Shown here: one piece after another, positions 2,283 to 62,502 of the stretch
Position numbering within the stretch: the first letter of the stretch is position 1
Layout of the letters: each line of letters opens with the position of its first letter
Origin: Brachycybe producta
Taxonomy: Eukaryota; Arthropoda; Diplopoda; Playtdesmida; Andrognathidae
NCBI GenBank assembly: GCA_036925085.1
Contig: JAUPFP010000003.1
Location: 682,001 to 746,000, forward strand
Direction of reading: 5' to 3'
DNA length: 64,000 bases
Notes under the pieces: generated by a model
Database searches by the model: none
Seen by the model: the letters and a program-made list of their open reading frames with translations, nothing else
Told to the model about the DNA's origin: nothing
Position numbers and translations under genes: made by a program

Positions 2283-5200
2283 CTGGGAAAAAAATGGAAG
2301 AAAAAAAAAACCACACACACACATTACACAACCAGACACGAAAACGAACTTCGTTAGATAAACAATAAAGAAGACTAGAAAGGGAAAAAAACAAACTTGT
2401 TATTCGTTTCCAATGAGTCCACTTTTCGCTTGTAGTCACAGTTTTCGTGAGCCAAATTTTCCACCCTAGAAAAAAAAAGAAAAACACGGAAAAAAACAAG
2501 TTTTAGTTACTGTTTTTCTCTCTCTTTCTTTCAAATAAGAAAGAAGGAGGAGGAGGAAACGACGGTTTCGAGAAAGAAAAAGAGGATCTTCGTACTTCTT
2601 TTCTAAGGCGTCCATGTATTCCTTCTTCTTTCTCCGACTTTCCTGAGCAGAAATCTGAAAACCAAGAAAAAAAGTAGAAAAACTTAACATAAAAATTGTC
2701 AGAAACATCGAAGTTTTTTTTTTTTCGAAATGAAAACCGCCTTAAGGTGGCTCAATAGATATATTCAATTTTGTTTTCCCCTTCCCCCAGATGGCGCCAT
2801 TGTAGTGGCTAATGCTAAGCTCCGTAGACTTTTTTTTTTAATTTTTTCGTCAATTTGAACGTTTTTTTCTAAAAAACATTAGAAAAAAATTTATAGCTTT
2901 CTAAACTAGAATGGTAAAAGATTATGTTAAATGGCGACATATTAAAAAATAAAAAATTTTAATAGTTCAGTTTGAAAAATGGACCCGTTTTTTTAGGTTT
3001 TTCCATTGAAATTTCATGAAAAACGATTTTCGCCTTTTTCGAACTCAACTAAAAAGTTTATTTTGAAAGATATCAACATGAATTTTTTTTTAGAATTATC
3101 ACGAACTATTCTAGTTTCTAAAACAGTTTTGATTTTTTTTTTTTTTCGTAATAATTCTTCTGAAAAAACGTTCGCTTGAAAAATATAAATTCTCTCAAAA
3201 AACCGCAGTTGTGGGAAGAGGAGACCCTCCGATAGAGAACATAATAGCCACTACAATGGCGCCATCTGGTAGTACAATAATAAAATCTATTCAGTTCCAT
3301 CTATTAATGACAGGCAATTAGAAAACGGGATGAACAGAAGTCGGCTCCGCCGTTTTTATGCCGACCGGCAACTTCTAATTGGTTTGAAAAGGGCGGAGCA
3401 TGTGACGTCAGACTACAATAACCAACCAATTAAAAGTTGCCGGTCGTCATAACAAGGGCGGAGCCAACTGAAGTTCTGACCGATTTCTAACTGCGTGTCT
3501 ATTAAGGTGGTTTTAAAGTCTAAACCCGAGGGGTGGGGCCTCGCGAACTGTTAATTATTAGGTCTTAATCAGGTTCAAAATAAAAAGAAACTTGGATGTG
3601 TTTTAGAAACTAGAAGGGTAACTCAACATCATTTAAGGCTGTTTTCATGTTGATATTTTTCAAAATAAACTTTTTATGTCTTGAGTTTTTAAAATGACTC
3701 AACTTTAAAGCAGAAAAATAATTGAAATTGAAATTAAATTCTAATTAAAGTTTGAAAATCTCCAAAAAAATTTATGTTATTTTCAGAGATTGCAACAAAT
3801 TAGAAAAAATAATAATTGGCAATTAATAGTTTTTAATTAAACCGTCCATCTTTTAATATCCTTTTTCAAAGCTTAAATAAAAATATTAAAATTGGTGCAT
3901 AAAATATGGATGACCTTTCGAGGAAATTGGTGTAAATTATTCAAAATGAATCATTGCATCATCTGTGCTTAAAACAATTAATTATAATTTGTCTAAAATT
4001 ATTGCTCAAAATGAAATGAGATGAAAATACGTTTTACTCAACTTTTAAAGATTATAAATTATGAGCAGCTGATTTTAGAAAAAAAACAAAAACTGAAAAG
4101 TATGTTATAAACTAGAAGAGAAGCTGAATCCGCTTAATGGTATTTTAATATTTAAATCTTTCAAAATAAGCTTTATTGTAGTATTAATTAATTTCTAGAC
4201 AAATTTAAACGTCTGCTTAACTTTGGAACATATTCAAATTTAACATTAATTGCTGCGTGTGGACTTTTATATCCCTCTGCCATAGGCCTATTTGGCTGCT
4301 AGCAGAGTGATTGTAATTGTAACAGGAAATTACCCTTCTAGTTTTTAACACTTTCAATTTCTCTCCTGAAACTGTAGAATAACCTTGGGAGTTCCAAAAT
4401 CGGATGTTCATAAAATATTTTAAAAAATTAATTCAAAGTGTTTTTCTTAGAAACTAGAAGGGTCAGCTATCAATCACAGTTAAGTGTGATTTCACGTTGA
4501 TATATCTTTCAAAATAAACTTTTTATGTCAGTATGATAGTAATCTAATTTTAAGCTGATGATATTCTTTAATTTTTCTCTTATTAAAAAGTTTATTTTGA
4601 AAGATATTTTATCAAACATGAAAATTATCCTTATATTCCGTAGCTAACCCTTCTAGTTTCTAACACACTTTCAATGTCTCCTCAGTGTTGTTTTGATCTT
4701 CGAAAATTGTAGAATAACCTCAATAGTTTAAAATTCACCTTGCTCATAAAACATTTTAAGAAAAACATTGATAAGTGGTTTTAGAAACTAGAAGGGTATT
4801 TTTCATTTTTGAGATATCTTTCAAAATAAGCTTTTTTCATGTCTGTTTTAAAAATAATTCAATTTTAAGCAGACGATATTTTAATTTTTTTATATAAAAA
4901 GTTTATTTTGAAAGATATCACAGATATCCTCCATTCTAGTTTCTAACACACTTTCAATTTCTCCTTAGTGTTGTTTGCTTTTATCTGAAATTTCATCCCA
5001 AAAAAAAAACAAGAAAATGAATGGAAGAAACGAAAATGAACCTTATTTTTAATCTTCCGCCTGATCTTCTTAAGCGATTTCTCTTCGGATTTCGTAAGGG
5101 GCAACCGAGTTGGGACCGGATATCCTTCCGCCACCAACGTTCTTTTTTCCTCTTCCGTTAGAAGAAGCAATCCAGTGGCTCCTTTCTACAAAAAATTCAA

Positions 5201-8200
5201 AATAAACACATTTAACACTGTGACACCTTTAATACAAATCTCATTAAATATAACATAGGGTGCAATCGGAAACTAAGACCTACTTTACACGAACCACTTT
5301 GTGGCGCCACCCCCGTATTTGTTGAAATTCTGCCACAACTTAAGTGACGTGACAATCGCCTGTCAATTGACGATCAGTGGTCCACACGGCCATTATTTTA
5401 AATGGTGGCTCTTGTGAAGCATACCATACCAACCACTTTGAGGCACCACAAAGTGGTCCATGTAAAGCCGGCCTTATGTTACATATAGACCCTTTAAGAG
5501 TGAGAGATTTTGCTCCGGATGTGCGTGCTTTTTCAGCCATTTTCTATAAGCCTCATATAAAGAAAGCCATTTTTTTGCATTCTGACTTTCACACTAGAGG
5601 TCGCCACATTCAATTTAATCTTCTCAAGAAAGCCAAGAATGTCCGGATTTTAATTCTTTCTTGAGAAGGGTAGGTGGCGTTAGTATTGTTGTTCCCGAAC
5701 ACGTTTTCTTTAAGAATGTTTCACTATTTTTCTTTACCAGTTATATAGGTTTTTCTTTAGTTTCCGAATGCACCCATAATTTAACCCTTTGACCCCCAGC
5801 ACCTTTTTTTAATTTTGACTGAAATTAGAAAATATAAAAATTAAAATCCACTAACTGGTTGAGTGCTGATGAGAGGAGAATTGAAAGAGTTTTTCGATGA
5901 CGACGACGATGAGGTGAAACTGGATCCGAGGGAACCCATGGTTCTAGCCTGCGATCCGTGCCTTCGCGATGATGACGAAGATGACGACGACGACGAAGAT
6001 GACGAAGAAGAGGACGGAGATGATAATGGGCAAGAAGACAAGAGGCTCGGAGGACTAGAAGGCTGCTGAGAGTAAATCGGACTTAAACTTCCTTCGGAGT
6101 CGCTGCTGTTACTCGAAGGAGGCGTCGGTGGCAGACCGAAAGCTAAAAAGATAATTTGAAAAATAAGACTTAAAATTTAAACACAAAATAATGAGAAATA
6201 TTTTTGAAACTGCGGCTCTCGCTCGACAGACTGCGGCTCTCGCTCGACAGACTGCGGCTCTCGCTCGACAGACTGCGGCTCTCGCTCGACAGACTGCGGC
6301 TCTCGCTCGACAGACTGCGGCTCTCGCTCGACAGACTGCGGCTCTCGCTCGACAGACTGCGGCTCTCGCTCGACAGACTGCGGCTCTCGCTCGTCAGACT
6401 GCGGCTCTCGCTCGTCAGACTGCGCCTCTCGCTCGACAGACTGCGCCTCTCGCTCGACAGACTGCTGATGGAGCTACCCTTCTAGTTTCTAAAATACTTT
6501 CTAGTTTTTCTCTTCATTTTGCTGTTCTGAAAAGACAGATTTTTTTTTCTTCCAAAATCAGCTATTCCTAAAATCTAATATTCAATATATTGCACAATTT
6601 AAACAATTTTTTTTCTTCTAATTACATTTTTATATATAATTAATTATATAGTGTATAATTTAATATAAAGTATATAATAAAAAATAAATCATTAAATCCC
6701 GAAAAAGAAGAAGAAGATTAAAAGATGAAATTTTAATAAAAATTTGAAAGAAAAATTGTTAAAATTAAAAAAAAGGTTTAATTCTAAGCAACGAATGAAT
6801 TTAATAAGTTATAAAATATAAAAAGCTCAAATTAAAATTAGTTTTGTGCTAAATCGATGTTGCTAACCATCGAACAAAGTTGCTAAGATATACAACACAC
6901 ACACATATTGCATTTTTATTACTCTCTCTCTCTCTCTCTCCCTTTGATAACAATGGAGGTGCAATCGGAAACAAAAAACACTTTAAAATGCTTTACAAAG
7001 AATTTCCGGAAGTGCTTCATTCCGCCATTTTTCTTCTCTGAAAAATTAGGCCATTTTTTTTTGTGCAAACATGTGTTCCTACATTCTGACCTTCAAAACC
7101 TGAAAGTTCACTATATTTAAGTAAGTTTTGATTAGGTTTTTGTTTTCTTGAGAAAGATATAGGTGGCGCTGGCATCGTTCCCAATCACGTTATCTTTAGA
7201 TTATTTTTTCGAATATACCTTTTTTTGTTCTGTTAAGTTTTCTTCACCGGATCATAATTTGCTTTTTCTAGTTTGAAGTATCCGAATGCGCCTTAATATC
7301 AATAATTCAATTTGAACAACATTTTAAAAGGACGAATAATATAAAAGAAGAGATAAAAATATCATCGATCACAGAAATATAATCATGATATCACACAATT
7401 GTAATTGTATATCAATAATATCTTAACCTACCTCGGGGTTAACTAATGAAATTCAGTCAAATTTCATTCATTTTTAGAAATATATAATAGATACATAGAG
7501 GTAGCTCAACTCCGTATGTTAAAGAAAAAATGCCGTGAGTGAGATAGGCAGTTAGAAATAGGGGAGAACTTCAGTTGGTTCCGCCCTTGTTATGACGACC
7601 GGCAACTTCTAATTGGTTGGATATGTAGTCTGACGTCACATGCTCCACCCTTTTCAATTTCTAATTGGTTTGATATTTGGTCTGACGCTTATTGAAAGGG
7701 CGGGGCAAACGTAATCTTAGTGCTGGATAGAACTGCCTGTCTTATGGGCACAGGCAAGTGTGCTCAGCACAATACATGTCGTTTGTCCCGCCCCTTTTAT
7801 GAGGAACAGCAACTTCTAATTGATTTGTTACTTTTGGTCTGTCACATGCTCCGCCCTTTTCAAATTTGGATTGGTTGATATTTGGTCTGACGTCACATGC
7901 CCCGAACTTTTCAATTTCTAATTGGTTGATATTTGGTATGACGCTCATAAAAGGGCGGGGCAAATTACTGTATTGTGCTAAGCACACTTGCCTGTGTCCA
8001 TAAGTGATCTAAAAGCGCCCCCTGTTGGTTTTTTTAAAAAACAACAATGAAAAACACATTTTTCACTTCAATTGTTGAATCGAATTTGATAAAATCCACA
8101 AAAACGGCCATTAAATTAACAATTAATGGGCCATTTATGTTTTCATTCGTCTCCAGATGAATTTAAATCAGAATGTGTTTTTCTTAAAAAGTAGAAGAGG

Positions 8201-11200
8201 CATTTGTGACCCACCTGAATGCGTTGGTTCTACTTTGACAGTGACTTTGGAAAACACCTGTCGACCGTGGCCTTTTAAGGTAGAAGATGACGAGGATTTG
8301 GTGGTGGTGGTGGTGGCCAATACGATGGTCGGTTGTTTGAGTAACGTCGTCGTGTGGTTCTGATGGTGGTTACTGTGGTTATTGTGATGGTGGTTATGAT
8401 GCGGATGATGGTGGTTATGATGATGATTATGATGACCACTGCTTGGATGGTAAGGACTGAGGCAAGTAAAGGGAGACGCGGACAAAAGTGGCGTCTGAGG
8501 TGAACCGGGAGCTGAAAGTGGCTCCTGTTTGACGTGAATCTCAGAAGAACCACTCGACCTGGAATCCATTGGAATCGATCCGAAACAATCCGAATCCAAA
8601 TCTGAACAACAACAACAAAAAAAAAACGAACCCAAAATAAAATTTTAAAAAAAATGGAGAAACTTGGATTGCTTTTAGAAACTAGAAGGGTAACTCAATC
8701 ACTAAAGTACATATTTTCATGTTGATTATCTTTCAAAATAAACTTTTTATAGAAAAAATATTAAATATCTTCTGTTTAAAAGTTGAATCATTTTCAAACT
8801 GACAGAAAAAGTTTATTTTGAAAGATATCATCAACATTTAAATACCCTTAAGTTATTGAACTACCCTTTCTAGTTTCTAACAAAATTTTCAATTTCTCTT
8901 CAGAAATGCAAAATAAGCATCATCTGTGAATATAAACGTCTCAAAAATAAACTTAAGTGTTTTTAGAAACTAGAAGGGTAGTTCCGGACACTTATTTGAT
9001 ATATCTTTTAAAATAACCCTTTTGTCTTTAAAAAACGTTTATTTTAAAAGATATATTAACTACCCTTCTAGTTTCTAAAACATTTTTGAAGTTTTGCTCC
9101 TGAAAGACAGAATAATAATAAAAGAGTCGATTAAACCCATCTTAAGTGACTCATTTTACTCTTCTAGTTTCTAAAACACCAATTCTTTTTTTCTTCAATT
9201 TCTGCTTTACTGAAGTTGTAAAATAACCAATCAGAGAGAGAGACTTCTATTCTAGAATTATTAATCCATTATTTGCATATTTTGCAAATGGCTGACTTTA
9301 CACAGACGTGTTAACATTGAATATGTGTTGTTTTTATGTTTATTTCATGTTAAGTTTCTAGTAACTTGTAACTTGTAACGTTTTTCAAGTTCACTAACCC
9401 CCCCCCCCCCTATTACTTTTTATTTTAACTACTTTTAAGCTCAATTACATCAGACATCACAAGTTGTGATTTGAGAACTTAAAACAACCGTTTTTTATTA
9501 TAATTTTACGTCATTTTTCTTATATTTTACGTAAATATTATAATAATTACACATATTATGAAAAACGTGACGAAATAAAAGAAGCGTTTAAAAGACTATA
9601 AGGTTGGATCACACAGGCAGAAAAAAATCAAATGTATCTCGTTTGAATACAGTAGAAGAAACTCCATTATTTTGACAAAATTCGGATCGAACCTGGTCCG
9701 GTTTACCGAAAATCCGGATAATCCTGAAAATCACCAATTTTTGTCTTTACTTTAATTCTCTCCATCATTAGCGGAAAATTAAGTCGAAAAACACCGATAT
9801 TATGATGAAATCCGGTCGGGATTATCGAGATCCGGTTAACCGAGATTCTACTGTAATTTCCATTCTTCAAATTTCACATGGCTGCTTGCTGCCTGCAATT
9901 GGATTCTTCTCCCACTGCCACAGGTCTTCATGTCTGCTCGAAAAAATACTAATTCAAAATTCTGTTTATCAGACTGAAATGTAGGCAGAAAACAACGGTT
10001 TTTACTCGTTTCTATTCTGCCATGCGGAATTACATTTTATCAGCCAATAGGAATTCGTTTTTCAGTTGCATCCTTCTGTTATGGCTCCTCTCCTTCAATT
10101 TATAAATACAGGCAAATGTAGCCAGCACTAGCTTTTTGTTTGCTCCGCCCTTTTATAAGCGTCATCAATTCCTAATTGGTTGATATTTGGTCTGATGCTC
10201 ATAAAAGGGCGGAGCAAACGAAAAGCTAGTGCTGGCTACACACACACACACAAGCAAGTAAAGACAGGAATACCGCCCCTTTGATGAGGACTGGGTACTT
10301 CTAATTGGTTTGTTACGTGGTCTGACGTCACATGCTCCGCCCTTATCAATTCTTAATTGGTTGATATTTGGTCTGACGCTCATAAAAGGGGTGGAGCAAA
10401 CGTCTGCGTGTCCCTGTCTTTACATGCCTGTTGGCTACACTTGCCTGTATTTATAATTCCTTCTATAAATTCAACAATGTCTTTGTGGTTAAAAACCGCT
10501 AAACGCAACGAAAAGCAGAAATATAGCTGAAGCTTTCTTCTGAATTTTTGTTTTTATTTTCTACTTGTTTTTACGTATGTGAGATCCAGCCCTAAAAGCA
10601 GGTTTACACGTAATTTTTTTTAAAAAAACTCATTTTCTGATTTCGTGTTTCAAAAGTTCAACCAGAAGAAGAAGAAGAAAAAATATCAAGTAAAATAAAT
10701 CGGGTGTAAAAAATTTTCTAATAAAAATTTCGGATGTTTTTAAACTTGGATACAAATTCTAAATCTTAAATAATTATGACCCCCCTCCCCTTTTTTTTTA
10801 GAATGAAATTAGGCAGTTGTCAAAAAAAAATGATAAAACTTGACATTATCCGGATTTCAATTTACGAAAAAAAAAAAACTAAATTGCTTCCAACTCGAAT
10901 CCAGATGTTAAAAAGATCACTTTTTACACCAAGTGTTGAAATGTCAAAACATCAATCTTCTACTATTTGCTGATTGCATGTAAAATTGGCAGCCATCTTG
11001 TTTCATCTTTTACACAAAATAACTGAAATTATTGTCATTTTCTGTTCAAGACTTTTTTTCAGAGTAGAAAGACTCAAACTTTTGAGCATTTCAAACACAC
11101 TGGAAATGAAGACATTCTTGTCTTGCAGACTTCACTGGAAATGTATTGCAATTCAACATTTCCATTTCCGCTTTCCTGGTTCACACGTGCAATGAATTTT

Positions 11201-14200
11201 TAAAGTTGCATTGTCACGAGCATCCAATAGAAACACCTCAACCACGCCCACTATGAATCGGGCTAACTATCGAGGCGCGTACTGCAGCACACAGGAAATG
11301 AAGACATTCTTGTCTTGCAAATTACACTGGAAATGTACTGCATTCAACATTAGCACTGCTGTTATTCCGGATCACATGATGCAACGAATTTTCGAATCAA
11401 CGATCCCTTGTGCTAAAGGTGAACATACAAAGTCCGATTTATTGGAACCAACAATGGTGGAACCAACAAACCAAGACAGTTCAAGATGTCTACAATGCAC
11501 GGGTCAACGTATCATCTAGCAGCAGCAGCAGCAGAAAACATCAAAACTATTTATGAATTTAACCTTTACTTTAGTTATTCTAACTTATACTTGGCTCCTG
11601 ATTGGCTGTAAGTCTTCCAACAGTTTATTTTGCTGGATTGAAGTACAGCAGGCCCTACTTTTGTTGGGCAATATCGGATATTGGAACAAGGCTTGCCACC
11701 TGTGGAGGACAGTCGTCTATTCGGAAGAACTGTGCTCCGGCACGTATTTAAGCTTTTATACAATTTATTGTGTGGAGGACAAGTTTGCCTTCGTGGAGGA
11801 CGGAACAGGCAATTAGAAAACGGGATGAACAGAAGTTGGCTCCGCCCTTTTTATGACGAACGGCAACTTCTAATTGGTGTGTTGTGTGGTTCGACGTTGA
11901 AAAGGGCGGAGCATGTGACGTCAGCCACTACATAACCAGCCAGTTAGAAGTTGCCGGTAGTCATAAAAAGGGCGGAGCCAACTTCTGTTCATCCCGTTTT
12001 CTAATTGCCTGTGGAGGACAGTCCTTGGCCAGAAGACATTTCTTCCAAATGGAGGGGACTGTCCTCCACAAAGGTGGAAAGGTAGGTGGCAAGCCTAATT
12101 AGAACCAACACAGGGGCATACACGATCCAATTTGTTGTTTCCAACAAATCGGATCGTTTATGTTTCACGTTTAGAGGCTTCAAAAATTCAAGTGCAAAAT
12201 TCCTTTTTCTTGAATTTGGACCCATTTTAAAGCTACGTTTTTTTTTTTTTTCTTTCTTTTCTTCTTCTAGTCTTTCAATTTCATTTAATCTAATCCCGAA
12301 AAATGTTCATTTCAACAAGTTTATTGAATAGAAAAAGTTTTAACAAACAAACAGGTGGATTTGGATTTTTCATAGTGAGGAAGAAGAAGAAGAAATAAAT
12401 TACAGGGTGTTTCTTGATTTGTTTTAAAATCATCTCAGGTGTAACAGACCTTGAAGTTAAAATATAATAAAAGACAAGGAAAGGAATCAAGTACAGAGAA
12501 GGAGGAGGAGGAGGAGGTTGGATAAGAGTTAAAAGAGTAGAAGGGGTCGGTCGGGGGAGTGATGATGATGATGAGCATGAAATGTTTTATTTTTTACAAT
12601 TATTCTTTTGAATATATGCGTGTTTCACAAAGCAGCCATCATCACTTTGGGCCACCAATTGTCTTTTTTTTAATGCATAAACTGCCTGGGTGAATGTTCG
12701 CAAAAGAATGCAGTTTTCTCTCTCTATCTATCTATTTTTTTCTGCACTTTTGTACCTTTTTCTCAATGTGTGTACACACAATAGGAACCGAACGCGTGCT
12801 GTTATTTTAGAAGCTCCCTGTAATTTGTAGACATAATATGCAAATTATGCAAATTAGACGAGTAAGAATTTTTGGTCGTTTTTTCTGCATTTCAGAACCA
12901 ACATTAAGATGGTTTAGGAACAGCTCCCCTTTTGGAATTCTTGTTTTTTCAGAAAATTTAAAACTTGAATGTCTTAAGAAACTAGAGTTATACTTAATGC
13001 ACACCTGATAATTTAAATGCATTTAAATAATAAACGATGTTCTACAGAGCCCTGTGAAGGACAAACGAACAATATGTTGAATTCAATTTATTCAGTTAAT
13101 TAATCTGAAAATATTGAGTTAATACTTAAATATTGATTTAGTATTTTTCAATTTAAAATATTAATAATTAAAGTCAATTTTTATTTGGTGTTCATGTCCT
13201 CAACTGGATTCCGTATAATTCACCTAAACACATTTAATTTCAATTCATTTAACTCATGTGTGCGTACAAGGTATTAAATAAATTGAAATTAAATGTGTTT
13301 AGGTGAATTCTACGGAATCCAGTTGAGGACATGAACAAAAAAAATTGACTTTAATTATTAATATTTTAAATTGAAATACTAAATCAATATTTTTGTCAAA
13401 TAGTTTAATTATATTTAAGTATTAAATCAATATTTTCAGATTAATTAACTGAATACATTGAATTCGACATATTGTTTGTTTGGCCTTCACAGGCCTCTGT
13501 AGAACATCGTTTATTATTTAAATGCATTTAAATTAATCAGCATTTAAATAAACTCAATCAATTTAAGTGTATGTTTTCATGTTGATATATTTCAAAATAA
13601 ACTTTTTATAGAACTTAAAAAAAAATATTCTTAAAGTTGGGCCATTTTCAAACTGACTTAAAAAGTTTATTTTAAAAGATATCAAAAACATGAAAATACC
13701 CTTTAAGTGATTATGTTACCCTTCTAGTTTCTAAAACTCTTGTTTATATTGTGTTTTTCAGGAGTAAAAAATGAAGAGAAACTAGAAGGGTAGCAGCTTC
13801 AATCATTTAAGGTGTATTTTTCACATTTGTTATCTTTCAAAATAAAGTATATGAAATTTAAACCAAAAAATCTATTTGTCATTTTTCAAACTGACAAAAA
13901 GTTTATTTTAAAAGATATCGTTCTGAAAAATTCCTTTTAACATGCTCTCACATATACACTATTCTAGTTTCTAACAAACTTTGATATTTTTTTTTGTTTT
14001 AAAAGAAAAAAGTTTACATTTTTTTCATTTTCTAGAAGAAAAAATTGGCCAATTGTAATGTGTGTTATTTTCTCTCATCATGTGTGTGTGGTCTTTTATT
14101 TTGAACTTGTTTAAAATGTAATTTAAATCTTGTATAATGAAAGGTGTTCTGTGGGAACCTCTTTTTCCCTTTACCACACATTACTAAAAAAACCGTATAA

Positions 14201-17200
14201 GATCAGTCATTATAGAAAATAACTAGACAAAGTGCAAAAAAACAATAAAGTACTTCAGTAAGTTTTAAAAATTAAAATGTAAACGATTCTTAAATTCTTG
14301 ATTATTCTTTTGTCTTTTAGCAGTTAGAAAACTAGAAAGTATGTTATAAACTAGAAGGGTGGCTTATAATCTTAAAAGGTATTATGTTATCTTTCAAAAT
14401 AAAACTTTTTTGAGCAGTTTTTTGTAAAAAAAAATGACCAAACGTTGAGAAGATATTTTTTTTTTAATTTTTGGTCTACAAAAAGTTTATTTTGAAAGAT
14501 AACATGAAAATACAGGCAGTTAGAAATCGGTCAGAACTTCAGTTGGCTCTGCCCTTTTTATGACGAACGGCAACTTCTAATTGGTTGGTTATTTAGTCTG
14601 ACGTCACATGCTCCGCCCTTTTCAACGTCGAACCACACAACAAACCAATTAGAAGTTGCTGCGGTCGTCATAACAAGGGCGGAGCCAACTGAAGTTCTGA
14701 CCGATTTCTAACTGCATGTCATGAAAATAGCCTTAAGTGATTCATCTACCGTTCTAGTTTCTAACACGCTTTCTAGTTTTCTGTTTTCTTCACAAAATAT
14801 TAGGTTTTTCTTTAGTTTTCGAATGCACCCAATATAACGAGTGCGTTCTGTTTTTAAGCGCTTACGAAGCAGCTCGAAGCTGCACGCAATTAGAAATCGG
14901 GACAAACAGAAGTTGGCTCCGCCCTTTTTATGACGAACAGCAACTTCTAATTGGTTGGTTATGTAGTGTGACGTCACTTGCTCCGCCCTTTTCAACGTCG
15001 AACCACACAACAAACCAATTAGAAGTTGCCGGCCGTCATAAAAAGGGCGGAGCCAACTTCTGTTTGTCCCGATTTCTAATTGAGTGTCTCGAAGCTTGCT
15101 ATATATGAATCACAGTTTATTATGTCAAATTTTAATTCATATGAACTTCTTCGAACCAATGCTTTCTCCCATTTACTCCGTAAATTGATCCGCAGCGCCC
15201 TCTATCTTGCCATATAACAAGTATTAAAAATATACACAATAATAATGGGTGCGTTCGGTATCTAAGCGATTTCAAAGCAACTCGAACTTGTTTATGTATG
15301 AATCGCTGTTCATGTCAAATTTTCATTCACATGAACTTACCTGGAACCTCATTTACGTCATAAACGAACCCACAGCGCCCTCTACCTCACTCTATAAAAA
15401 GTATTATTATTAAGAATAGCCTCTAATTATAAGTTATAACGGGTGCCGTTCTGTTTCTAAGCACTTACGAAGCAGATTCAAAGAAATTTTGTCATTTTGT
15501 ACATTGTCTAGTGATTGTACAGAATGACTCATTTTTGGTGACACAAATCACCTCGAGAGAGCGAGAGACATTCTTGTTGTAACCAATAAAAAAAGCAGCC
15601 ATTATCTTTGTTATCTTTTTCTTTCTCCGTTTTGTTAATAGTATAAAATGTAAAATAAAAGACAATAGGTGAAAAATTGTAGACTTTGCGCCAGGTAAAA
15701 ACACACACAAAGAATCAAATGATGATGATGATGATGATGATAACATCACATATCATTATTAACCATTATTAGCCTCATTTGCAAAAAAAAATGAGAGCAT
15801 TTCTAGAAAAGAGACTTAACTGACAAAGAAATATTGAAAAATGTAACATAAATAATATAAATAAATAATAAATAACAGTAAATAAAAACATGCATTTTCA
15901 CACACTCTCTCTTCGTTTTGTGTTTAATGCTGGTTTTTACAGGCATTTAGAAATCGGGATGAACTTCAGTTGGCTCCGCCCTTTTTATGACGACTGGCAA
16001 CTTCTAATTGGTTTCGACGTTGAAAAGGGCGGAGCATATGTGACGGCAGACTATACATAACCAACCAATTAGAAGTTGCCGGTCGTCATAAATAGGGCGG
16101 AGCCAACTGAAATTCTTTCCGATTTCTAAATGCCTGTTTTTTTTACCTTTGACCTTTTATTACATTTCATAGTTTTCTCATAGTTCACATTCTTTTTGAA
16201 ACACCCTGTAATTTATATATTTGTCTTTGTTGTACAGAGTGTTTCAATAATATTTAAAGAATGCAATAAACTTTTCATTTTGAAATATCTTCTTGTTGTT
16301 ATTGGCTTCAATGCTCGTCGTCGTCGTACAAATTAAACTAAAAAAAAAAGTCAATGTACTCAGCAGCACACGCTAATTTATAAAATCCCCTATAATATTT
16401 CATTCTCTCTCATTAACAGACCAATTTCACGTAACAATGGATTGTTATAAGAATAATTTCAAAGTAAAATAAAAATTGAGCCCTCTTCTTCAACAGGGTT
16501 TTTAACCATGAAAACCACTTAATGCGAGTATGCATTGAACAAATAGGGGGTTTGCGTGTTGGAACCCTGTTTAAAGGGTACAAATTAAAGTTCAAGCGCT
16601 GAGGCACGAATTCAAGGAGCAAAATTTGACATCAAAATAAATCTGAACCCTCTCAACAGGGTTCCAATATACCTCTTTGTGAGAGAGTTTTCTGTGTGTT
16701 GGAACCTTGTTTAGAGGGTCCAAGTGCTAAGGTACAAATTCAAAAAAGTAAACTCGACATCAACTTCACTTTGAACCCTCTCTCAATAGGGTTTTCCAAT
16801 ATCAAAAACCTCTTATTGAAAGTACTCTTGAATAAACAAGGGTTTCTTTCCTCTCTTTGAACCCTGCTCAAAGGGTACACACGTTCAACTACAAGTTCCA
16901 AAGCACAAATTCAATTAGAAAACTTGACGTGAACTTCAATTTTGAACCCTCAAACAGGGGTTCCACAACTTAGAATAATTCATATTGAAAGTATTCTTGA
17001 ATAAACAGGGATTTTCCTGTGTTGATACCCTGATTAGAAAGGGTTTTATATGGTAAATTTCATTCTTGAATTTTGGCCTTTTGATGGCAAAAAAAGGGGG
17101 TAAAAACGTAGGGAGGCCCCGGCAGGCCAGCCACACCTGAATCAATGAAGTGTTAAAAATGTAAACAACACAACAAGTGTGGTTGGTGGCAATGGAATTT

Positions 17201-20200
17201 TCAATATGAAAAAGCCATTATTTTCTCTTATTTCACCCGAGGAAAGAGAGAAGAGAATCTTGTTGAGGGGTCACTTACCCCACTTTCTATTTTATAACAT
17301 CTTGTAATTTGCAATCTCACCGACTTTTTACCTTCTACCTTTTTTTTTTGCTCTTACAAAACACACTTGATGCATATTTTACATAATATTCAAAACATTG
17401 AATGAAAAATATTGCAAAGAATGTGGTCAAAACTACTAAAGTTGCAATTCGCCTAAAAAGAACTTTAAAAAAAAATTCTTCAGACTATTTTTTTTAAAAA
17501 GTTAATTTCTTAATATGGTTTATTAATTATTCTTTCAGAAGAACAAAATTAAAAGAAACTAGAAAGTATTTTAGAAAACTAGAAGGGTAGCTTAATCGTT
17601 ATAATGGTGTTTTCAGGTTATTTTTTAAAATAAACTTTTTATAGACAAAAATATTGTCTACTTTGTATTCCTCCTTTGAATATTTTTTAGTTTTCTTAAT
17701 TGACTCATTTTACTCTTCCAGTTTCTAAAAAAAAAAACTTTCAAAATTTGTCTTTTTTAGAAAAAGCCAAATGAAAATTTGAATTTCTCCAATTTGACTA
17801 ATTCCATTCTATTCTATTTCTTCGGCAGAAAAGAGGTAGAATGCGTAATTCAGCATTGAACCCAAAAGAAAGCCGAAATAGAGGAAACTTTTTTCACACA
17901 TGTGGGACCCAAGCTTTTTTTACTTTTTCATTACAAATTTTGAACTTTTGATTTTATTATTTAAGTAGCTTCGCTACTTCTTTTGAAAACACCCTGTATT
18001 TATGTCAAATATGCAAATTTTTCTACAAAATAAATCCGTTATTTTACACCTCAAGTGAATGAGTTGTCTAATCGTGTTCAATTATGCAAATTAGCACCGT
18101 TTATAACCAAACCAGTTTTTATGTTTATCTTTTAAATTAAAAAAAAGCTAATCATTTTTTTATGAAAAAAATCTTAAAATGTTTTTAAAATTAAGTTTTA
18201 AAAAAACGTTTTAATTGCAATTAACGCTCAAGTGATTTAACCATGAAAAATGGAAAAATGTATCAAATTAAAAACAGAGAGGAGAATTTTCTTATCAAAA
18301 GAAATCTCAATTCAGTAGTAGCTTCAACATTGAAAAAGAATGAAGGTAAAACAGCGCCCCCTCTGGGATCAAAATATAATTTCTCCCCACCTCAAATTCT
18401 TTCATAATATTGTTTTTACCTGACAATGACCTCAAGGAAATTCTATCTCTCTCTCCCTTGAAACTTGGCGTTTTTTAAATGAATTTTTAAAAAAACTTCC
18501 AATAAAAAGTCTAAACTAAGAAAGAATAAATGAATTTAAAAATTTTTAACTTTAAACTTGAAAGATTTAAGTTTTAATTTGAACTTTTTTGTTAATTTTA
18601 CTAAATTAACAAAAAATCTGAATACTTTGACCTATATTTAATAATAAAAAAAAGTTCAACTTGAACCCTCTAAACAGGGTACTAAGTTACTAACATAAGA
18701 AAAACCTTTTGCTAAGAGTGATTTTAATTTAAATTCCTCTGCAAGCAGTGAAGAGGGCCTGTGGCAGAAGAACTATTTAGTCCAAACGAAGCATTGAAAA
18801 TGCATTGTCAAAATAAACTTACTCAATGCAATTAATACTCTCAAAGCAGTGTTTTTCTATGTTGGAACTCTTTGCTCTGAGAGTTCAAAAGTTAAGGTTC
18901 AAGTGTCAAATTTTTCTTATTGAATTTGACCCTTAGAACCTTAATTTCTCACTTGAACTCTCTCAAAAGGACTCATATAACATGGAAGTACTTTATATTC
19001 AAGGTTATTCACAATAAAGCTGAGTTTTTCTATGTTGGAACCCTGTTTCGAGACTTCAAGTGCCCAAGTTTTCTTCTTAAATTTCGACCATACATTTTTA
19101 AAGAGATTTTTTTTAAAAAAAAAAAAGTATCTTCGAAGTGTATTATAATTTATAAACTAGAAGAGTAAATAAATCTTAAATTTTTCTAATATCTTTCAAA
19201 ATAAACTATTTATGGTAATTTGAAAATGATCCACATTTAAAGTAAGATTTTCGTCTAAAAAAAAGTTTATTTTGAAAGATATATCAACATGAAAATCTAC
19301 TTTTAAGTGATTCAGCTACCATTCTAGTCTTTAACACACTTTCAATTTCTTATTAGTGTCGTTCACCTGTTCATTTAATTTTAATGATCTTCTCGCCAAT
19401 AATTTTTTTAAATGTTTTATTAATGAAATAATAAATAATTAACAATTAAAATTGTTTATAAAAATTCAGAATTTCATTTTTTGGCAACTGAACTTTTTAT
19501 TTGTTTCGTCTTTTTCGCTAAATTACAATTAAAACTGACAAAAGTTTGAACCAATGAGAAAATAAAAGTTAAATCTCACCAATGATACTGATCGATATTT
19601 TAAATATTGAATTCGATAACAATAGAAATTACTGACTAGAAAAGAAAGTCCAATTAAAAAAAACAATGGAGAATTTCAGTCTCGAAAATTGTCCTGAAAA
19701 AGGCCTAAAAAAAAGGCTTAACCACACGTTGTTTTAAAGTTTAAAACGCCTCTTCTTGAACTCTTGATTATTAATGCTTTTCAGGTGTAAAATGAAGACA
19801 AACTTCAATGTGTTTTAGAAACTAGAAGGGTAGCTCAATCCCTAGTTTCCTGTTTACCTAGTTTCATGTTATTTCAGTTTGAAAATGACCAAACTTTAAG
19901 TAGAAGATATTTAAAAAGTTTATTTTAAAATATATCAATACGAAAAATTGAAAATACCCTCTTAAATGACTGAGCTGACCCTTCTAGTTTCTAAAACACA
20001 TTCAAGTTTCTCTCCATTTTGCATCTGAAAGACATGGAGGTTCGAGAGGCATTTACACTTTAAAAAAAAACACCTTAACCATGTTGTGACAAATTTAATT
20101 GTGGTTAATTTAACCACCTTAGTTAGACCTTGTTCACACACAGCTGATAATTTAAATGCATTTAAATAATAAACGTGTTCTACAGAGCCCTGTGAAGGAC

Positions 20201-23200
20201 AAACAAACAATATGTCGAATTCAATTTATTTAGTTAATTAATCTGAAAATATTGAGTTAATACTTAAACATAATTAAATAAACTATTGACATTAAAATAT
20301 TGATTTAGTAATTTTAATTTAAAATATTAATAATTAAAGTCAATTTTTATTTGAATTCATGTCCTTAACTGGATTCCGTATAATTCACCTAAACACATTT
20401 AATTTCAATGGAAACAAGGTGTAATTAATGGGTTTTAGCTGTTTGTAAAGTTGAAAACTTGTTCAAATTTCACTATTTTGAGAGAGGCTTGGATCAATGC
20501 CCAAATAAAAAGTTTCATAAATTGCCAATTTCTATTATTAATATATTATAAATATTAATAATAAGTTTATAATTAATGTGACGGAAGTACAGAATAAAAA
20601 TAATCAAAAAAACTTGTAAAAATATGAAAAATATGTTTTTGTTTTTTAAAAAATCCATCATTTATCATATTTTTCTAAAAAAAAATTTACAATATCAGAA
20701 ACAAGTTAAAAAGAAATTACTTTTAAAGAAAAATAAGTCATAATTGTTTGAAAATAAATTTCATTTTTTATATATTTTAAAATACGTTAAAGTTAAGAAA
20801 CTAATAAATTTTGTCAAATTTAAAAAAAAAAGTTTTATGTCAAATAATTTAGAATTTTAGAGCAAAATATATTTTATAATTTATGCTAATTTATGTAAGT
20901 TTCATTTTATGTAAATACTTAAAACATAATAAAACTTTTTGAAATTTATAAATTTTCTCAAATTTCAATTTTTTAAAAAAAAAAACCCCTTTTCAGAAGA
21001 CTTCTTCTTTTGAAACCAGTTATGGAGACTCCCCCCCCCCCCTTATGAGGCCTTTTCAGGGCTTTGAATATTTTTTGAGTTTTTAAATTTATAAAATGTC
21101 TCTAATTTTTAATTATTTTGGGAAATTTCTCGAGTTTTAAAATTTTCCTAATTTCCGTAAATTTTAAACCTTAGTGGGAGGAGACTTCTGAAGCCAGTTA
21201 TGCCCCTTCCTTCCTGAGGCATTTTCAAGGCTTTTTTTTAATTGTAATTAAAACAAACCTGAAAATGCCCCAAGGATTAAAAACAACAGAAAATTCATAA
21301 AATTTAAAACAAAAAAAAATGGTTGAAATTCAATCAAATTTCCATAATTTCAAAACAATTTTATTTTTTCCTTTAGGGAAATTTTGCTATTTTTTCGAAG
21401 CTGCAAAAATGTCTCCAATTTCCGTAATTTTTAAACGTTTTTGAGGCCAATTCAGTCCTCCTTTTGGCCATTTTTTACTTTTAAAATTTCTCCAATTTTC
21501 CGTACAAACAATTTAAACCTTTTTAAGAATTTCCAGACCCAAAATTGAGCCCTTTTCGGACATTTTCAGGTATATTAAATACTTCAACTTTAAAATTTGG
21601 CCATTTTTTATTTTAAAATTACTCAAATTTCCGTATTTTAACTATTTTTAATAATTTTTTGAGAATTTTAAGAAATTTTGGCTATTTTTTTAATCAAAAT
21701 TTCCGCAATTTTTAAACGTTTTTGGAAACTTTTGATTCTAAAACAATGAGACATTTGAAACCTGTAAACATTTCAGGCAATTTCTCCTACCAAATATTCT
21801 AGTCGTCGTTTTCAAATGAAGTAGTGCCGGAATACCCGAGGTTATAACCTTTATAACCTGTTTCACCTCCAATTAATAATAAAATTTGTTCTTAATTTTT
21901 TTCATGCGTTACAAATTTTTAAACAATTAAAATAAATAAATGAAACTAAAAAAATAACAATACTATTTTGGTTTCGGGAGGACGGAAATTATGAGGAGAC
22001 TGAGCGAAGAGGGGGTTAAATTGTAACCAGTAATGTTCCCAGGGACGCGCGGTTACGGGACGAAACAGTGATAGGGTTAATGGCTTTTTTTTTTTTACTT
22101 GAGGTCGAGATCGTGAAGAATTAAACGGCTGGGGAACACAAAATTACAGATATTTTCGCACGATTTCGATAATGAGGCTATGACTTATGTGAGCCAATAA
22201 TCAAGTCATATTATGTTGGCTCGCGAGCCGACTAAAATAAAGCCAATACGTGGCTCACGAGCCAACAAAAAAAATAAGTGGCTCACAAAAAACAGGTTGT
22301 CTCGTGAGCCAACAGAATTGCACAAATAAGTGGCTCAGAAGCCAACAAAATAAAACCGCAAAATGGCTCGCGAGCCAATAAAAAAATAACGGGCTCGCGA
22401 ACTAACCAAACGTAGAAGAAATAAGTGATTTGCCAGCCAACTGAAACTAACCAATGAGTGGCTCGCGAGCCAACATTTTCTTACAGTAGTTAATAAGTAG
22501 GTTAATGCTTTTATTTCAATTAAAATTTCTGGTTAGAGGCTACAAATTTTGATCTTTAGCTACAAAGTGTCGATCGTCGTCTACAAATTTTCGACTCCAG
22601 CTACACATTTTCGACTCCAGCTACACATTTTCGACTCCAGCTACACATTTTACACCTTCGGCTACAAAATTTTGATCTTCAGATAGGAATTTTCGACTCC
22701 AGCTACAAATTTCCGATCTTCAGCTACAAATTTCCGATCTTCAGCTACACATTTTCGACTCCAGCTACACATTTTCGATCTTCAGCTACAAAATTTTCAC
22801 CTTCAAGCTACAAAATGTGGATCTTCAGCGCCACTTTTATACTGTGGTTTAACTCAAACTCTTGATTTTTCTGTCTTTTAGGTGCAAAATGAAGAAAAAC
22901 CCGAGTATATTTTAGAAACTAGAAGGGTAATTTAATCGCTTAATAGCATTTTCATGTCGATATCTTTAAAAAATAAGTTATTTATAACAGTTTAGAAATG
23001 ACCACCCAACAATATATTTTGTCTGTAAAAAGTTTATTTTGAAAGATATCAAACATGAAAATGCCATCTTTAAGTGATCAAATTACCCTTCTAGTTTTTT
23101 TTTAAAAAACTTAAATTTTGCTCTTCTAAAAGACAAGAATCAAAGAATCAAAGAGTTCAAATATTTTTTTCTTTTCCATATTTCGGAAAAGAAAAAAAAT

Positions 23201-28351: not shown

Positions 28352-28397
<46 letters not shown>

Positions 28398-34300: not shown

Positions 34301-34787
34301 ACGTCAGACTACATAACCAACCAATTAGAAGTTGCCGGTCGTCATAAAAAGGGCGGAGCCAACTTCTGTATGTCACGATTTCTAATTGCCTGTGTGCCAA
34401 ACTGAACAAGGGCCAAACTAAACAAGTGCCAAGAAAAATAACCACAAAATTTTGAGCAGTTATTCAGTTTTTAGCCATTTGTTCAATTTTGGGCTAATTA
34501 CGTTTGGCGCTTGTTCAATTTTGGGCTAATTACGTTTGGCCCTTGTTCAATTTGGCACTTAGATGGTTTGGCGCTTGTTTAATTTGGCACTTAGGCTCAA
34601 GTTGGCGTTTCTTCACTTTAGCACTTTATTCTGTTAGGCATTTCATCAAATATGGCCGCCACAATATTCAAAAGATTCAGTCACACACAGAAAACGCCTG
34701 TCATAAATGTCCACCAATATAACAGTCCACTGCTACATGACTCCACTAACGTAACTCATACGGAATCAATGACGTCAAATGTGGAAA

Positions 34788-34819
<32 letters not shown>

Positions 34820-39789: not shown

Positions 39790-39823
<34 letters not shown>

Positions 39824-39985
39824 ATCCATCTATCCTTCATTCATTCCTTTTCTCTCCAGCTCCTTCAATTTCTCTCTCTCTCTCTCCATCTGTAGCATGC
39901 TCTCTCAATCCATCCTTCATAGTCTCTCTCTCTCTCTAGCTCCTTCATTCTCTCTCTCTATCCATCCCTACATTCATTCTCTATT

Positions 39986-40036
<51 letters not shown>

Positions 40037-43000
40037 TGTTTACTTTAAAAAAAAAACCCTCTTTTTTTTCAAAGTCAAGGTCACTTCAAGAAACCCAAGT
40101 GACGACATAAAAGTGGAATCTTATGACGTCACACAAACAGGAGCATGGAACTAAAGGACACCATTTCCAACGAAAAGACCTTGAAAATCCTTGAAGGATT
40201 TTTTGTTATCATCCACTTTTTTTTTTTAAATAAAACTTGCTCAGGTTTTTAAGGGACTTGTTTTTTCTTCAATAAACGTAAATAATGTGAGGGGGGTTTA
40301 TAATTTCTTATTATTTAAAACGTTGAAAATTTTGAAAAGTTTACTAGAATTTCGAAACTAGAAAGGCAATCACCGGTATCTTTTTTTTTTGCAAAATAAA
40401 TTTGTTATCATCCACAAAATTGAAAAAGCTAAACTTTTTGACATTTTTCCCTTTCAAACTTTGTTTATTTTGAAAAAAATATTTAAGTGATAAAAATATT
40501 TTTAACTCCTTCTGTTGCCCTTTCTAGTTTCTAAATTTTTTTGCAAACATTTAGTTTCTTCTAGATGGTTTTTTAATAAAACATCTTGCCTTTCTAGTTT
40601 TTAAATTCTTGCAAACTTTTAAAGATTCTTCTGGATGGTTTTTTTAATAAAACATCTTTGCCTTTCTAGTTTCTAAATTCTTGCGAACTTTTAAAGATTC
40701 TTCTAGATTGCGATGACTAAAATCAAACTTTCTAAAGTTTAAACAAATCAAAACCGGCGTTTTCAAACTTATAATAAAAAGCTTATTTTGAAAGATATTT
40801 TGAAAATACTTTCAAAAACGCATTCGCGTTTACTATTCTAGTTTCTAACAAACTTAATAAAATTTCATTTAGAAATTGCTGACATTCGTAACTTGTCTTT
40901 CATAAGAAATCTTTCGCGTGCTGAGAAACGCTCATTGTTATGTTTTATTATGTAAAATAATGATCTTATCAAAATGAGCAATATAATAAAACACGAGTAA
41001 CACAAATTGAAGGTCAAATAAGGTCACACCTTATTCACATTATTATCCAACGACGCTTGAATTTTTATAGAATTTAACCGCATTTATTCGTCATATTTAT
41101 TGAAAAAAAAACTCATTTTGCCGTTAATATAAAGAGAAGTTGAAAGTGTCTTAGAAACTAGAAGGGTAGCTCAATCACTTAAGGATTCATTATATTTCAA
41201 AATAAACTTTTTATAGACAAATTTTTTTTAAAAAATCTCGTCTGCTTAAAGTTGAGTCATTTTTGAAACTGACATAAAAAGTTTATTTTGAAAAATATCA
41301 ACATAAAAAAACCCTTAAGTGATTCAGTTACCCTTCTAGTATCTAAAACACTTTCAAGTTTCTTCTTCAGTTTGCTCATCTGCAAGACAGAATAAAACTG
41401 GTTAATTAAGAGCGAATTTATTGTGTTTTTATCAAAAGAGCAAAAACGAATAAAAACTAGAAAGTGTTTTTTTAGAAACTAGAATGGTAGCTCTCATCAC
41501 TTAAAAAAGGTATTACTTTTTTCATGTTGATATCGTTCAAAATAAACTTTTAAAAAGTCAAAAATTAACACAAAAATATTGTTGAGTCATTTTAAAACTT
41601 ATGAAAAAGCTTATTTTGAAAGATATCAAAAACATGAAAATATCTATAAGTGATTGACCTACCCTTCTAGTTTTCTTAATTGTATTTCCTTGAAAGACAA
41701 TATGAACCGTTTACAGCTTTTATAAACCACATGAAGTGTATTTAATTACAAAATTCCCCTATTAAAAATGTTATATTTTGCACAATTCAAGCTCATTATG
41801 CACTTTTTTCAACCATAAGGAAGAAAAAAAAAACGTCATTTCACAGGTCACAGTGACATTTATTCATCTTAGTCACTCTCTTCTTTATTTCTTATATTAC
41901 AGAAGTTAATTAAAACTCATTTAATATTTTCCAATATGGCCGCCATTCAAATGAAAATAAACCTGGGGGAAGAAAAAAAAACATTTTTCCTTTTTTTCCT
42001 AAACTGAAATGCGTTTTAATTCAGGTGGAAAAGGAAGGAGGAGGAGGAGGAGAGAGAATGTCGCGTTTTTCAAACAACGTTTAAATTAATCCAAAAAAGC
42101 AATTTCCGTGAAATGACGTCTATCACCATAATAGGTACCACTATGGACACAGGTGCTTCAATGAAACACACATGTGTCACACACACACAAAGTGATACAA
42201 CGAAGAATAACAAGTGGAACGTAACGAATTGGATAATAACCAGAAATGAGACTGAAGTTCACTTATAACGCGAGCCCCCCCTCTCTAACCAGGCCCCCCC
42301 CTCTCACTATCGAGCCTCCTTCTCTGGCCCTTTCCTTTCAGTAAACACACAGGCAGATAGAAATCGGGACAAACAGAAGTTGGCTCAGCCCTTTTTATGA
42401 CGACCGGCAACTTCTAATTGGTTGGTTATGTAGTCTGACGTCATTTCAACGTCGAACCCACACAACAAACCAATTAGAAGTTACCATAAGTCGTCATAAA
42501 AAGGGCGGAGCCAACTGCATGAAGTTCTCTCCTATTTCTAACTGCCTGTCCCCTTCCTTTCAGTAAACCTGGCCCCTCCCACTTTAAAAACTTTTTCAGG
42601 TTCCAACTTTTTATATCAAGCCCCTCCCTTCTAAATTAAGCTCTTCTTTGGCCCCTTTTAACCTGAACCTAAACCCATTCTAAGACCCCCCCTTCTCTTT
42701 TATCGGGGCCCCCTTTAAACCAAGCCCCACTCAGGTCCGAGTACCAATTCATCTTTTCAATTCTAAAATCCAAAACAATGCATCAAATTTCGACGAAATT
42801 TGACCAAAACCTCTCCAACTCAATTACAATTTTAATTTCATAATGGATAACAAGTGACCAATGTCCGAAAGTTCAGAAAAATACAAAGTTTCTCTTGAAT
42901 TTCATTTATCAAGAGGAACTTTTTCAATTCTAAAAAGTTCGGTTATTTCTTATTGTCATTTTTAATATCGTCAAACTTGAAATTAAGTCACTTTACAAAA

Positions 43001-50791: not shown

Positions 50792-50794
<3 letters not shown>

Positions 50795-53100: not shown

Positions 53101-53374
53101 GGCTTCAGATTTTATTCTGCTTTAGCACTTTTCTTATTTAACCATTGAACACTTTAGCTCTTGTTTTGAAGAAGAAAAAAAAAGCTAAACTTGGACCAGA
53201 TTTATATCATGTTTAGCCTTTATTTATTTTTAGCCCTTTCTATCAGTCCTTTTCATCAATTCCAATAATAAGATGAATGGTTTTTAAGCCAAACACAAAT
53301 TAAGAATGAGGCTGTTGACCCTCTCCCTTACGTGACCACTGACCACTGGTCAGATAAATGAATGTGTTATAAAC

Positions 53375-53580
53375 ACAGGCAGTTAGAAATCGGGAAGAAT
53401 TTCAGTTGGCTCCGCCCTTGTTATGGCAACTGGCAACTTCTAATTGGCTGGTTATGTCGTCTGACGTTGAAAAGGGCGGAGCATGTGACGTCAGACTTCA
53501 TAACCAGCCAATTAGAAGTTGCCGGTCGTCATAACAAGGGCGGAGCCAACTGAAGTTCTGACCGATTTCTAACTGCCTGT
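53375..53580. mobile_element. Family A foldback MITE, copy 17
   Basis: ACAGGCAGTTAGAAATCGGG to CTAACTGCCTGT, with GTGTTATAAAC (11 bp) on both sides. CRE and GC boxes intact. The next family A-type element starts 11 bp after its end. Confidence 0.93.
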
Positions 53581-53591
53581 GTGTTATAAAC

Positions 53592-54005
53592 ACAGGCATC
53601 TGTAGACAGCTTGAGAATTTCTATGGCTCCGCCCTTTTATGAGCGTCAGACCAATTATCAACCAATTAGAAATAAAAAAGGCGGAGCATGTGAAATCAGA
53701 CCCAGTAACAAACCAATTAGAAATTCAAGACGCTCATAAAAGGGCGGAGCTAAAGAAATTCTGAAGCTGTCTACAGAACAGGCAATTAGAAATCGGGGCA
53801 TACAGAAGTTGGCTCCGCCCTTTTTATGACGACTGGCAAGTTCTAATTGGTTTGTTATGTGGTTCGACGTTGAAAAGGGCGGAGCATATGTGACGTCAGA
53901 CTACATAACCAACCAATTAGAAGTTGCTGGCCGTTATAATAAAAAGGGGTGGAGCCAACTTCTGTATGTCCCGATTTCTAACTGCCTGTGTTTACAGATG
54001 CCTGT
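53592..54005. mobile_element. Family A variant, copy 18, interrupted by copy 19
   Basis: Outer ends ACAGGCATCTGTA and TACAGATGCCTGT. The inner palindrome has GACAGCTTGAGAATTTCTAT against AAGAAATTCTGAAGCTGTC and CGCTCATAAAAGGGCGGAGC. No CRE octamer in this variant. Copy 19 lies in its right arm. Confidence 0.85.
53778..53989. mobile_element. Family A foldback MITE, copy 19, nested in copy 18
   Basis: ACAGGCAATTAGAAATCGGG to CTAACTGCCTGT, flanked by GTCTACAGA and GTTTACAGA (9 bp, one change). CRE intact. Confidence 0.92.
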
Positions 54006-61680: not shown

Positions 61681-61684
61681 AATA

Positions 61685-62280: not shown

Positions 62281-62291
62281 ATCATTTTAAG

Positions 62292-62502
62292 ACAGGCAAT
62301 TAAAAATAGGTGAAAACTTCAGTTGGCTCCGCCCTTGTTATAACGACTGACAACTTCTAATTGGCTGGTTATGTAATCTGACGTTGAAAAGGGGCGAAGC
62401 ATGTGACGTCAGACTTCATAACCAACCAATTAGAAGTTGCTGGCCGTCATAATAAAAAAGGGCGGAGCCAACTGAAGTTTTGACCTATTTCTAACTGCCT
62501 GT
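62292..62502. mobile_element. Family A foldback MITE, copy 20
   Basis: ACAGGCAATTAAAAATAGG to CTAACTGCCTGT with perfect 9-bp duplication CATTTTAAG (62283-62291, 62503-62511). CRE intact. Confidence 0.94.

Follow-up and report, generated by a model that had tools for sequence, protein, structure and literature searches.

A probable Mutator-like foldback element carrying a CREB-type octamer, and an excess of the site outside it, in the millipede Brachycybe producta

Does a dispersed foldback element that carries promoter-like boxes spread regulatory modules, or are the boxes simply part of a transposon? The question is raised by a 64,000-nucleotide stretch of the genome of the millipede Brachycybe producta (assembly GCA_036925085.1, contig JAUPFP010000003.1, C3:682001-746000; hereafter the window), part of a 295.3-Mb genome in 442 contigs. 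Here, the octamer TGACGTCA, a known eukaryotic basic leucine zipper (bZIP) site and the cAMP response element (CRE) of the present text, recurs together with GC and CCAAT boxes inside a foldback element termed family A. In our judgement this element is, with good probability, a non-autonomous Mutator-like (MULE-type) foldback miniature inverted-repeat transposable element (MITE), whose boxes belong to its own sequence, are multiplied by transposition and then decay. As such it is an ordinary kind of object, for which a promoter-module reading is not needed; the part worth following is that the exact CREB-type decamer is in excess outside the element, to a large extent at single-copy positions.

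A 206-bp consensus was derived from 89 copies on contig C1, taken from the first 100 listed places of an outer-arm search; all have zero mismatches in the outer-arm anchor, so that the sample leans to well-kept copies. The element is near-palindromic, ends in ACAGGCA...TGCCTGT, and has arms that pair along their whole length around an asymmetric 20-nt loop, TGAAAAGGGCGGAGCATGTG. The octamer straddles the arm/loop junction, taking TG from the loop and ACGTCA from the arm. GGGCGGAGC and CCAAT/ATTGG recur, as each arm repeats the other in inverted form, and the earlier note on this window, made from its letters alone, had described CCAAT/ATTGG and GGGCGGAGC/GCTCCGCCC correctly.

A profile built with nhmmer from 14 window copies was searched against the window and the surrounding 200 kb, yielding 21 merged intervals in the window, from 3308 to 62504. 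Among the window copies listed, gapless arms of 50-95 nt are 82-99% complementary, and the loop is found in both orientations; GGGCGGAGCATGTGACGTCA has 17 window matches at up to 3 mismatches, compared with 0 in 100 shuffles. The one copy that was folded (34186..34395) forms a single hairpin over its full length (-102.1 kcal/mol for DNA, z -24.4). The octamer occurs 26 times in the window, 17 times inside the element and 9 times outside. By eye, it is present in 17 of the 21 intervals and absent from those starting at 10106, 15937, 28580 and 53591, in agreement with an earlier count of 17 of 20 if, as seems likely, the short degenerate copy at 10106-10237 had been left uncounted. The intervals are as follows, with TSD standing for target-site duplication.

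3308..3500, plus strand, copy with octamer intact, flanks CTATTAATG / CTATTAAGG (9-bp TSD, 1 mismatch)
7542..7741, minus strand, copy half family A and half variant core, octamer intact
7759..7996, minus strand, variant copy whose outer terminal repeat differs (ACAGGCAAGTGTGCTCAGCACAA), two octamers, the one intact and the other degenerate
10106..10237, no strand given, short degenerate variant copy without the octamer
10252..10432, minus strand, variant copy, octamer intact
11803..12014, plus strand, element copy, octamer intact
14510..14721, minus strand, element copy, octamer intact, TSD CATGAAAAT
14880..15089, minus strand, element copy, octamer intact
15937..16139, plus strand, element copy, octamer broken (TGACGGCA)
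24992..25204, minus strand, element copy, octamer intact, TSD GTTTGAGGC
28580..28790, plus strand, element copy, octamer broken (TAACGTCA)
30368..30577, minus strand, element copy, octamer intact, centre of a larger palindrome (30245-30700)
30891..31103, minus strand, element copy, octamer intact, TSD GATTTTAG (8 bp)
34186..34395, plus strand, element copy, octamer intact, the copy used for hairpin folding
35198..35323, plus strand, half copy (loop and right arm), octamer intact
37021..37231, plus strand, element copy, octamer intact, TSD CAACACAAC
42347..42551, minus strand, element copy with shortened loop, octamer intact
53373..53582, plus strand, element copy, octamer intact
53591..53773, plus strand, variant copy whose outer terminal repeat also differs (ACAGGCATCTGTAGACAGC), broken octamer TGAAATCA, seemingly interrupted by the 53776 copy (by eye)
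53776..53991, plus strand, element copy apparently nested in the 53591 copy, octamer intact
62290..62504, plus strand, element copy, octamer intact, TSD CATTTTAAG

Genome-wide, the outer-arm pattern at up to 2 mismatches gives 9,510 + 9,507 = 19,017 matches in 295 Mb. As an intact copy contributes two arms and repeat counts are lower bounds, the family is of the order of ten thousand copies, and the description of a dispersed foldback element, drawn at first from the window, holds for thousands of copies in the genome. Short, non-coding, bounded by inverted repeats and present in thousands, the element has the properties of a MITE. TSDs were scored in the 46 sampled copies that retain both exact termini, the other 43 of the 89 being left unscored. 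An exact 9-bp TSD is found in 19 of the 46 and one with a single mismatch in a further 6; exact TSDs of 8, 10 and 7 bp occur in 3, 1 and 1 copies, respectively, and an 8- or 10-bp TSD with one mismatch in 5. Several window copies also show TSDs. The assignment is made because duplications of 8-10 bp (usually 9), the long terminal inverted repeats of the window copies and the foldback form fit Mutator-like elements.

If the octamer were under selection within the element, it should be better kept than comparable words. Intactness was counted genome-wide with flanks fixed and the tested 8-mer left free. Of 3,235 copies whose flanks match, 2,536 (78.4%) retain the exact octamer, compared with 4,748 of 6,103 (77.8%, both arms counted) for the arm 8-mer TCGTCATA, which also contains one CpG and is an imperfect control, having one G/C fewer than the octamer and other fixed flanks. 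In the C1 sample, which was anchored on the outer arm with the loop left free, 83 copies have letters throughout the octamer and 64 of them retain it; it takes 29th place among 116 windows of eight bases. When windows are matched for base and CpG class, the chance P is 0.09 with columns below 85% removed and 0.13 with columns below 90% removed. Among the first 100 listed copies in which the octamer was left free, 23 have it broken, and 12 of these 23 show a CpG transition at two of its eight positions (by eye). The element also presents the site as G-TGACGTCA-G, unlike the RTGACGTCAY form outside it. With 78.4% against 77.8%, rank 29 of 116 and P values of 0.03-0.13, special conservation of the octamer was rejected, and the expectation that it would be more conserved than its neighbours was not borne out. 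It shows no clear excess of conservation, and its decay resembles that of the element as a whole, leaving room for a small surplus. More generally, promoter-like motifs of high-copy MITEs can seem conserved while they decay, and a genome-wide control removes the signal.

MULE transposases are present in this genome. The MULE domain PF10551 has 21 matches above the cut-off, several of them with open frames longer than 700 amino acids, and the frames in stretches L138 and L140 were confirmed. L138 and L139 represent one MULE with ACTAGCG ends and a 9-bp TSD, exact in L139 (ATCTTCTTT) and with one mismatch in L138 (CCTTTTATC/CCTATTATC; by eye). Family-A modules beside MULE frames were considered as ends of an autonomous element and rejected; the copies in L142 and L144 are separate insertions, because each has its own 9-bp TSD. 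Apart from these, L140 (C5:5400300-5408300) is a very large foldback with arms of about 3.8 kb that are 99.8% alike. An open MULE transposase frame lies in each arm, and one of the two frames ends in a weak PHD-finger match below the Pfam cut-off; we take L140 to resemble Rehavkus elements.

As a mechanism, a host MULE transposase presumably moves the element in trans; the CRE, GC and CCAAT boxes would be copied by transposition as the element's own sequence and then decay like the remainder, and most copies would have no regulatory role. Several points, the imperfection of the arm control among them, weigh against the picture of a decaying non-autonomous Mutator-like MITE. The octamer is better kept than the adjoining loop GC box GGGCGGAG (78.4% vs 66.6%, the latter intact in 2,536 of 3,810 copies genome-wide), a difference ascribed to base composition, and the class-matched P is 0.03 with all columns kept. 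No duplication of 6-12 bp at up to one mismatch accompanies 11 of the 46 scored copies. No autonomous ACAGGCA-ended element was found in seven stretches covering 8 of the 21 MULE matches, where the ends of L140 fall outside its stretch and those of others may too. Finally, 21 insertions in 64 kb compare with 6 copies in the surrounding 200 kb (7 intervals, of which L027:9860-9998 and L028:1-132 are one copy across a stretch boundary), so that the window is far denser in insertions than its surroundings.

The octamer is not confined to the element. The genome holds 35,739 TGACGTCA and 4,452 exact element 20-mers; scaling the latter by octamer-to-20-mer ratios of 17/8 (window), 64/23 (C1 sample) and 23/8 (264 kb) places roughly 9,500-12,800 octamers in the element and about 23,000-26,000 elsewhere. 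In 258 kb of element-masked DNA, 39 octamers were counted against 2.1, 2.1 and 3.9 expected from first-, second- and third-order models of AT-rich local DNA (GC 31-36%), an excess of about 18-fold. All five sequence sets show the excess (observed/expected 4/0.25, 4/0.55, 9/0.35, 15/0.97 and 15/0.83). A purine precedes the site in 69 of 78 half-sites, giving RTGACGTCAY, of which element-masked local DNA has 31 compared with 0.4-0.7 expected. The out-of-element sites are located as follows.

26342, 33139, 33328, 34770, 34882, 40124, 44673, 45267 and 60403, window sites outside the element
L009-L028, stretches with further sites outside the element

One-base variants of the octamer were counted for 7 of the 12 distinct forms, with ratios peaking at 1.8-2.2 under the first- and second-order models. 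Observed and expected numbers are 14 vs 7.6 for TGACGTAA, 8 vs 4.7 for TGAGGTCA, 7 vs 4.3 for TGACGTGA, 3 vs 2.3 for TGACGGCA, 6 vs 7.6 for TGATGTCA, 2 vs 7.6 for TGACGTTA and 3 vs 11.6 for TGACTTCA. Of the 39 octamer contexts, 27 have no similarity to the other stretches compared and 12 have relatives there. A genome search of 22 contexts, chosen from the 27, returned self only for 19 and 1, 3 and 5 weaker relatives for the remaining three, the single-copy check skipping simple repeats and very common words. Spacing is also non-uniform: the first 100 octamers of C1, a few of them in the element, include 11 adjacent pairs less than 100 bp apart (1.35 expected) and 7 pairs at 150-190 bp (0.58 expected), at least two of the latter in repeats (L121, L132).

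A separate observation concerns a second repeat (GAAGCTTGTGACGTCAGAGGGGTT...), which is palindromic where whole; TGACGTCA stands in each of its arms, the two sites being separated by about 160-170 bp. It is found at these places.

26342 and 33328, window, copies of the second repeat
L011:4184-4354, copy of the second repeat
L013:1576, copy of the second repeat
L121, copy of the second repeat

Genome-wide values are rougher than the local ones. The expectation from the five sets is about 1,700-4,100 octamers, or very roughly a 6-13-fold excess for out-of-element sites, a figure that is rough because the reversed controls ACTGCAGT and YACTGTAGTR exceed the local model too. The former occurs 7,349 times and is inflated locally as well, so that the 4.9-fold ratio to it is not clean. 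For RTGATGTCAY, the form expected of decayed sites, local DNA has 2 vs 1.3-1.6 expected and the genome 6,529, where the local model predicts about 1,500-1,900. The reversed control of this form, YACTGTAGTR, has 2,805 genome-wide and also exceeds the model, perhaps via another repeat; the decayed-CRE test is therefore ambiguous.

Such a pattern invites the explanation that it is a property of the host: a dominant CREB/ATF factor would have a very large set of RTGACGTCAY maintained for it in single-copy DNA, and several transposon families would carry the site for that reason or by chance. The local excess with its purine preference, the variant ratios peaking at 1.8-2.2, the recurrence in all five sets, the single-copy status of 19 of the 22 chosen contexts and the close pairs all speak for it. 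On the other hand, the enrichment of a further palindrome, TGGCGCCA, is no smaller (24 vs 0.7 expected, a ratio above that of TGACGTCA in first- and second-order models), apparently via a repeat. About 12 of 19 TGGCGCCA contexts share one (by eye), which means that repeats can create such a palindrome excess. TGATGTCA is raised in MULE loci (12 vs 2.6), partly from duplicated sequence. Both of these results lower the odds of a host network. Moreover, 12 of the 39 contexts have relatives among the stretches compared, the genome-wide RTGATGTCAY may include decayed sites, and low-copy transposon families could account for the sites. On balance we regard the host-property explanation as possible but not probable. 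Its more specific form, in which about 20,000 single-copy RTGACGTCAY, often in close pairs, would constitute an animal highly iterated palindrome selected for one dominant CREB/ATF-type factor, with unrelated transposons including the foldback element exploiting or seeding the network, is speculative and rather unlikely. In the one published comparison that was found, human DNA is stated to contain only 25% of the expected canonical CREs ("data not shown" there; PMC1796609). An animal genome with a several-fold CRE excess would be a good setting in which to study how a regulatory word spreads and how far transposons supplied it.

The repeat shared by these TGGCGCCA contexts, a dispersed one with CACTRCARTGGCGCCA, lies at window positions 1358, 1818, 2792 and 3257 and in L012 and L019-L024. 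It yields the roughly 12 of 19 TGGCGCCA sites (19 vs 0.6 expected) and some of the ACTGCAGT excess.

It has also been proposed that the element itself spreads ready-made regulatory modules. Part of this proposal stands, as the CRE, GC and CCAAT boxes are indeed copied many times; its other part, selection on the octamer, is not supported. A stronger version takes the CRE of the element for a promoter module under selection, either working in source copies in the germ line or taken over by host genes, and could draw on the co-occurrence of the boxes, on the one class-matched P of 0.03 and on the persistence of the octamer in ACAGGCA-type copies with other outer ends (window 7759 and 10252; L143:4141-4286). 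There is also a precedent: in mouse IAPLTR1a, a CRE contributes about half of the reporter activity (PMC9729108). However, the genome-wide intactness of the octamer equals that of the similar arm 8-mer, about half of its losses are CpG transitions, and the G-TGACGTCA-G flanks do not fit the RTGACGTCAY found outside the element, all of which makes a selected module improbable. The reading of a decaying Mutator-like MITE is thus retained.

The window copies lie largely in and around a CREB3/CrebA-like bZIP gene, which is located, together with its neighbour, as follows.

2180..44336, minus strand, CREB3/CrebA-like bZIP gene, exons as below
44253-44336, minus strand, probable exon 1 (weak match)
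about 24401-24616, minus strand, exon
5072-5185, minus strand, exon
about 2589-2654, minus strand, bZIP exon
down to about 2180, minus strand, further exons
48108-49529, PSMA1 (proteasome subunit), neighbour gene

Open frames at 8168-8644 and 5841-6176 are presumably part of the same gene, from their resemblance to CREB3L/CrebA. The earlier statement that most copies lie in introns of a CREB-class gene depends on how far the gene extends: with the probable exon 1, it spans about 42 of 64 kb (about 66%) and holds 17 of the 21 copies, whereas by the firm exons only (2.2-24.6 kb), it spans about 22 kb (35%) and holds 9 of 21. The share of copies in the gene is near proportional in either case, because the gene covers about 66% (35% firm) of the window. 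The exact element 20-mer occurs 8 times in the window and not once in the surrounding 200 kb, the genome mean being 0.96 per 64 kb; over the first 17.75 Mb of C1, its counts are over-dispersed as well (variance/mean 1.6) and reach at most 6 per 64 kb, a smaller cluster. The presence of copies in the gene would follow from its long introns, which take up a large part of the window, and from the position of the window in a local insertion cluster. Autoregulation of the CREB3-like gene by intronic element-borne CREs, for which the 17 of 21 copies within its probable span and the window's 8 exact 20-mers might be cited, is very improbable given that near-proportional share, the 4 copies beyond the gene and the over-dispersion elsewhere; no evidence for it was found, and tying the local cluster to CREB autoregulation goes beyond the evidence.

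Several further repeats were observed. The copy at 30368 is enclosed by a palindrome (30245-30700) with 190-nt arms (96%), whose flanking arm sequence was found nowhere else among the stretches compared, so that an inverted duplication of the flank may have come after the element inserted. L143:4141-4286 holds an inverted-repeat element of 146 bp that ends in ACAGACA/TGCCTGT and contains TGACGTCA and an AACAAACCAATTAGAA core, apparently another member of the ACAGGCA clan. Another dispersed repeat (AAAAAGTTTATTTTGAAAGATATC ... CTACCCTTCTAGTTTCTAAAACAC) has many copies between window positions 643 and 63028, with inverted pairs such as 36296-36570. Minisatellites with units of 20-22 bp, several of them differing in sequence, lie at 56372-57571, 45976-46503, 6167-6523, 51969-52309 and 63573-63943.

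Among the literature matches listed, there was no CRE-bearing MULE foldback and no genome-wide TGACGTCA excess in an invertebrate, and the closest known systems each share part of the present picture. Cyanobacterial HIP1 is likewise a palindromic octamer frequent throughout a genome, as in the TGACGTCA excess, but it is bacterial and linked to methyltransferases, whereas TGACGTCA is a eukaryotic bZIP site (PMC4390886). Mouse intracisternal A-particle (IAP) long terminal repeats represent a transposon family with the exact TGACGTCA; there, the CRE is bound by CREB1 and adds to transcription, whereas here the octamer is a candidate site and is not specially conserved (PMC9729108). Muta1 and other MULEs of Aedes aegypti share an animal Mutator-like transposase and 8-9 bp TSDs, but Muta1 is autonomous, while the family-A element is a short, non-coding and nearly complete palindrome (PMC5225508). 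The Tm1 Mutator/Foldback family of root-knot nematodes includes transposase-encoding members, whereas the partner of the present element was not found in the stretches covering 8 of the 21 MULE matches. Tandem subrepeats of 13-15 bp occur in the arms of Tm1, whose end motifs also differ; in the arms described here no such array is evident by eye, no dedicated arm scan having been made. With its MITE-like members, foldback termini and transposase-encoding members, and with TSDs of 8-10 (mostly 9) bp, a length like that of the present element, at targets of no clear preference, Tm1 is the nearest animal case found (PMC3169594).

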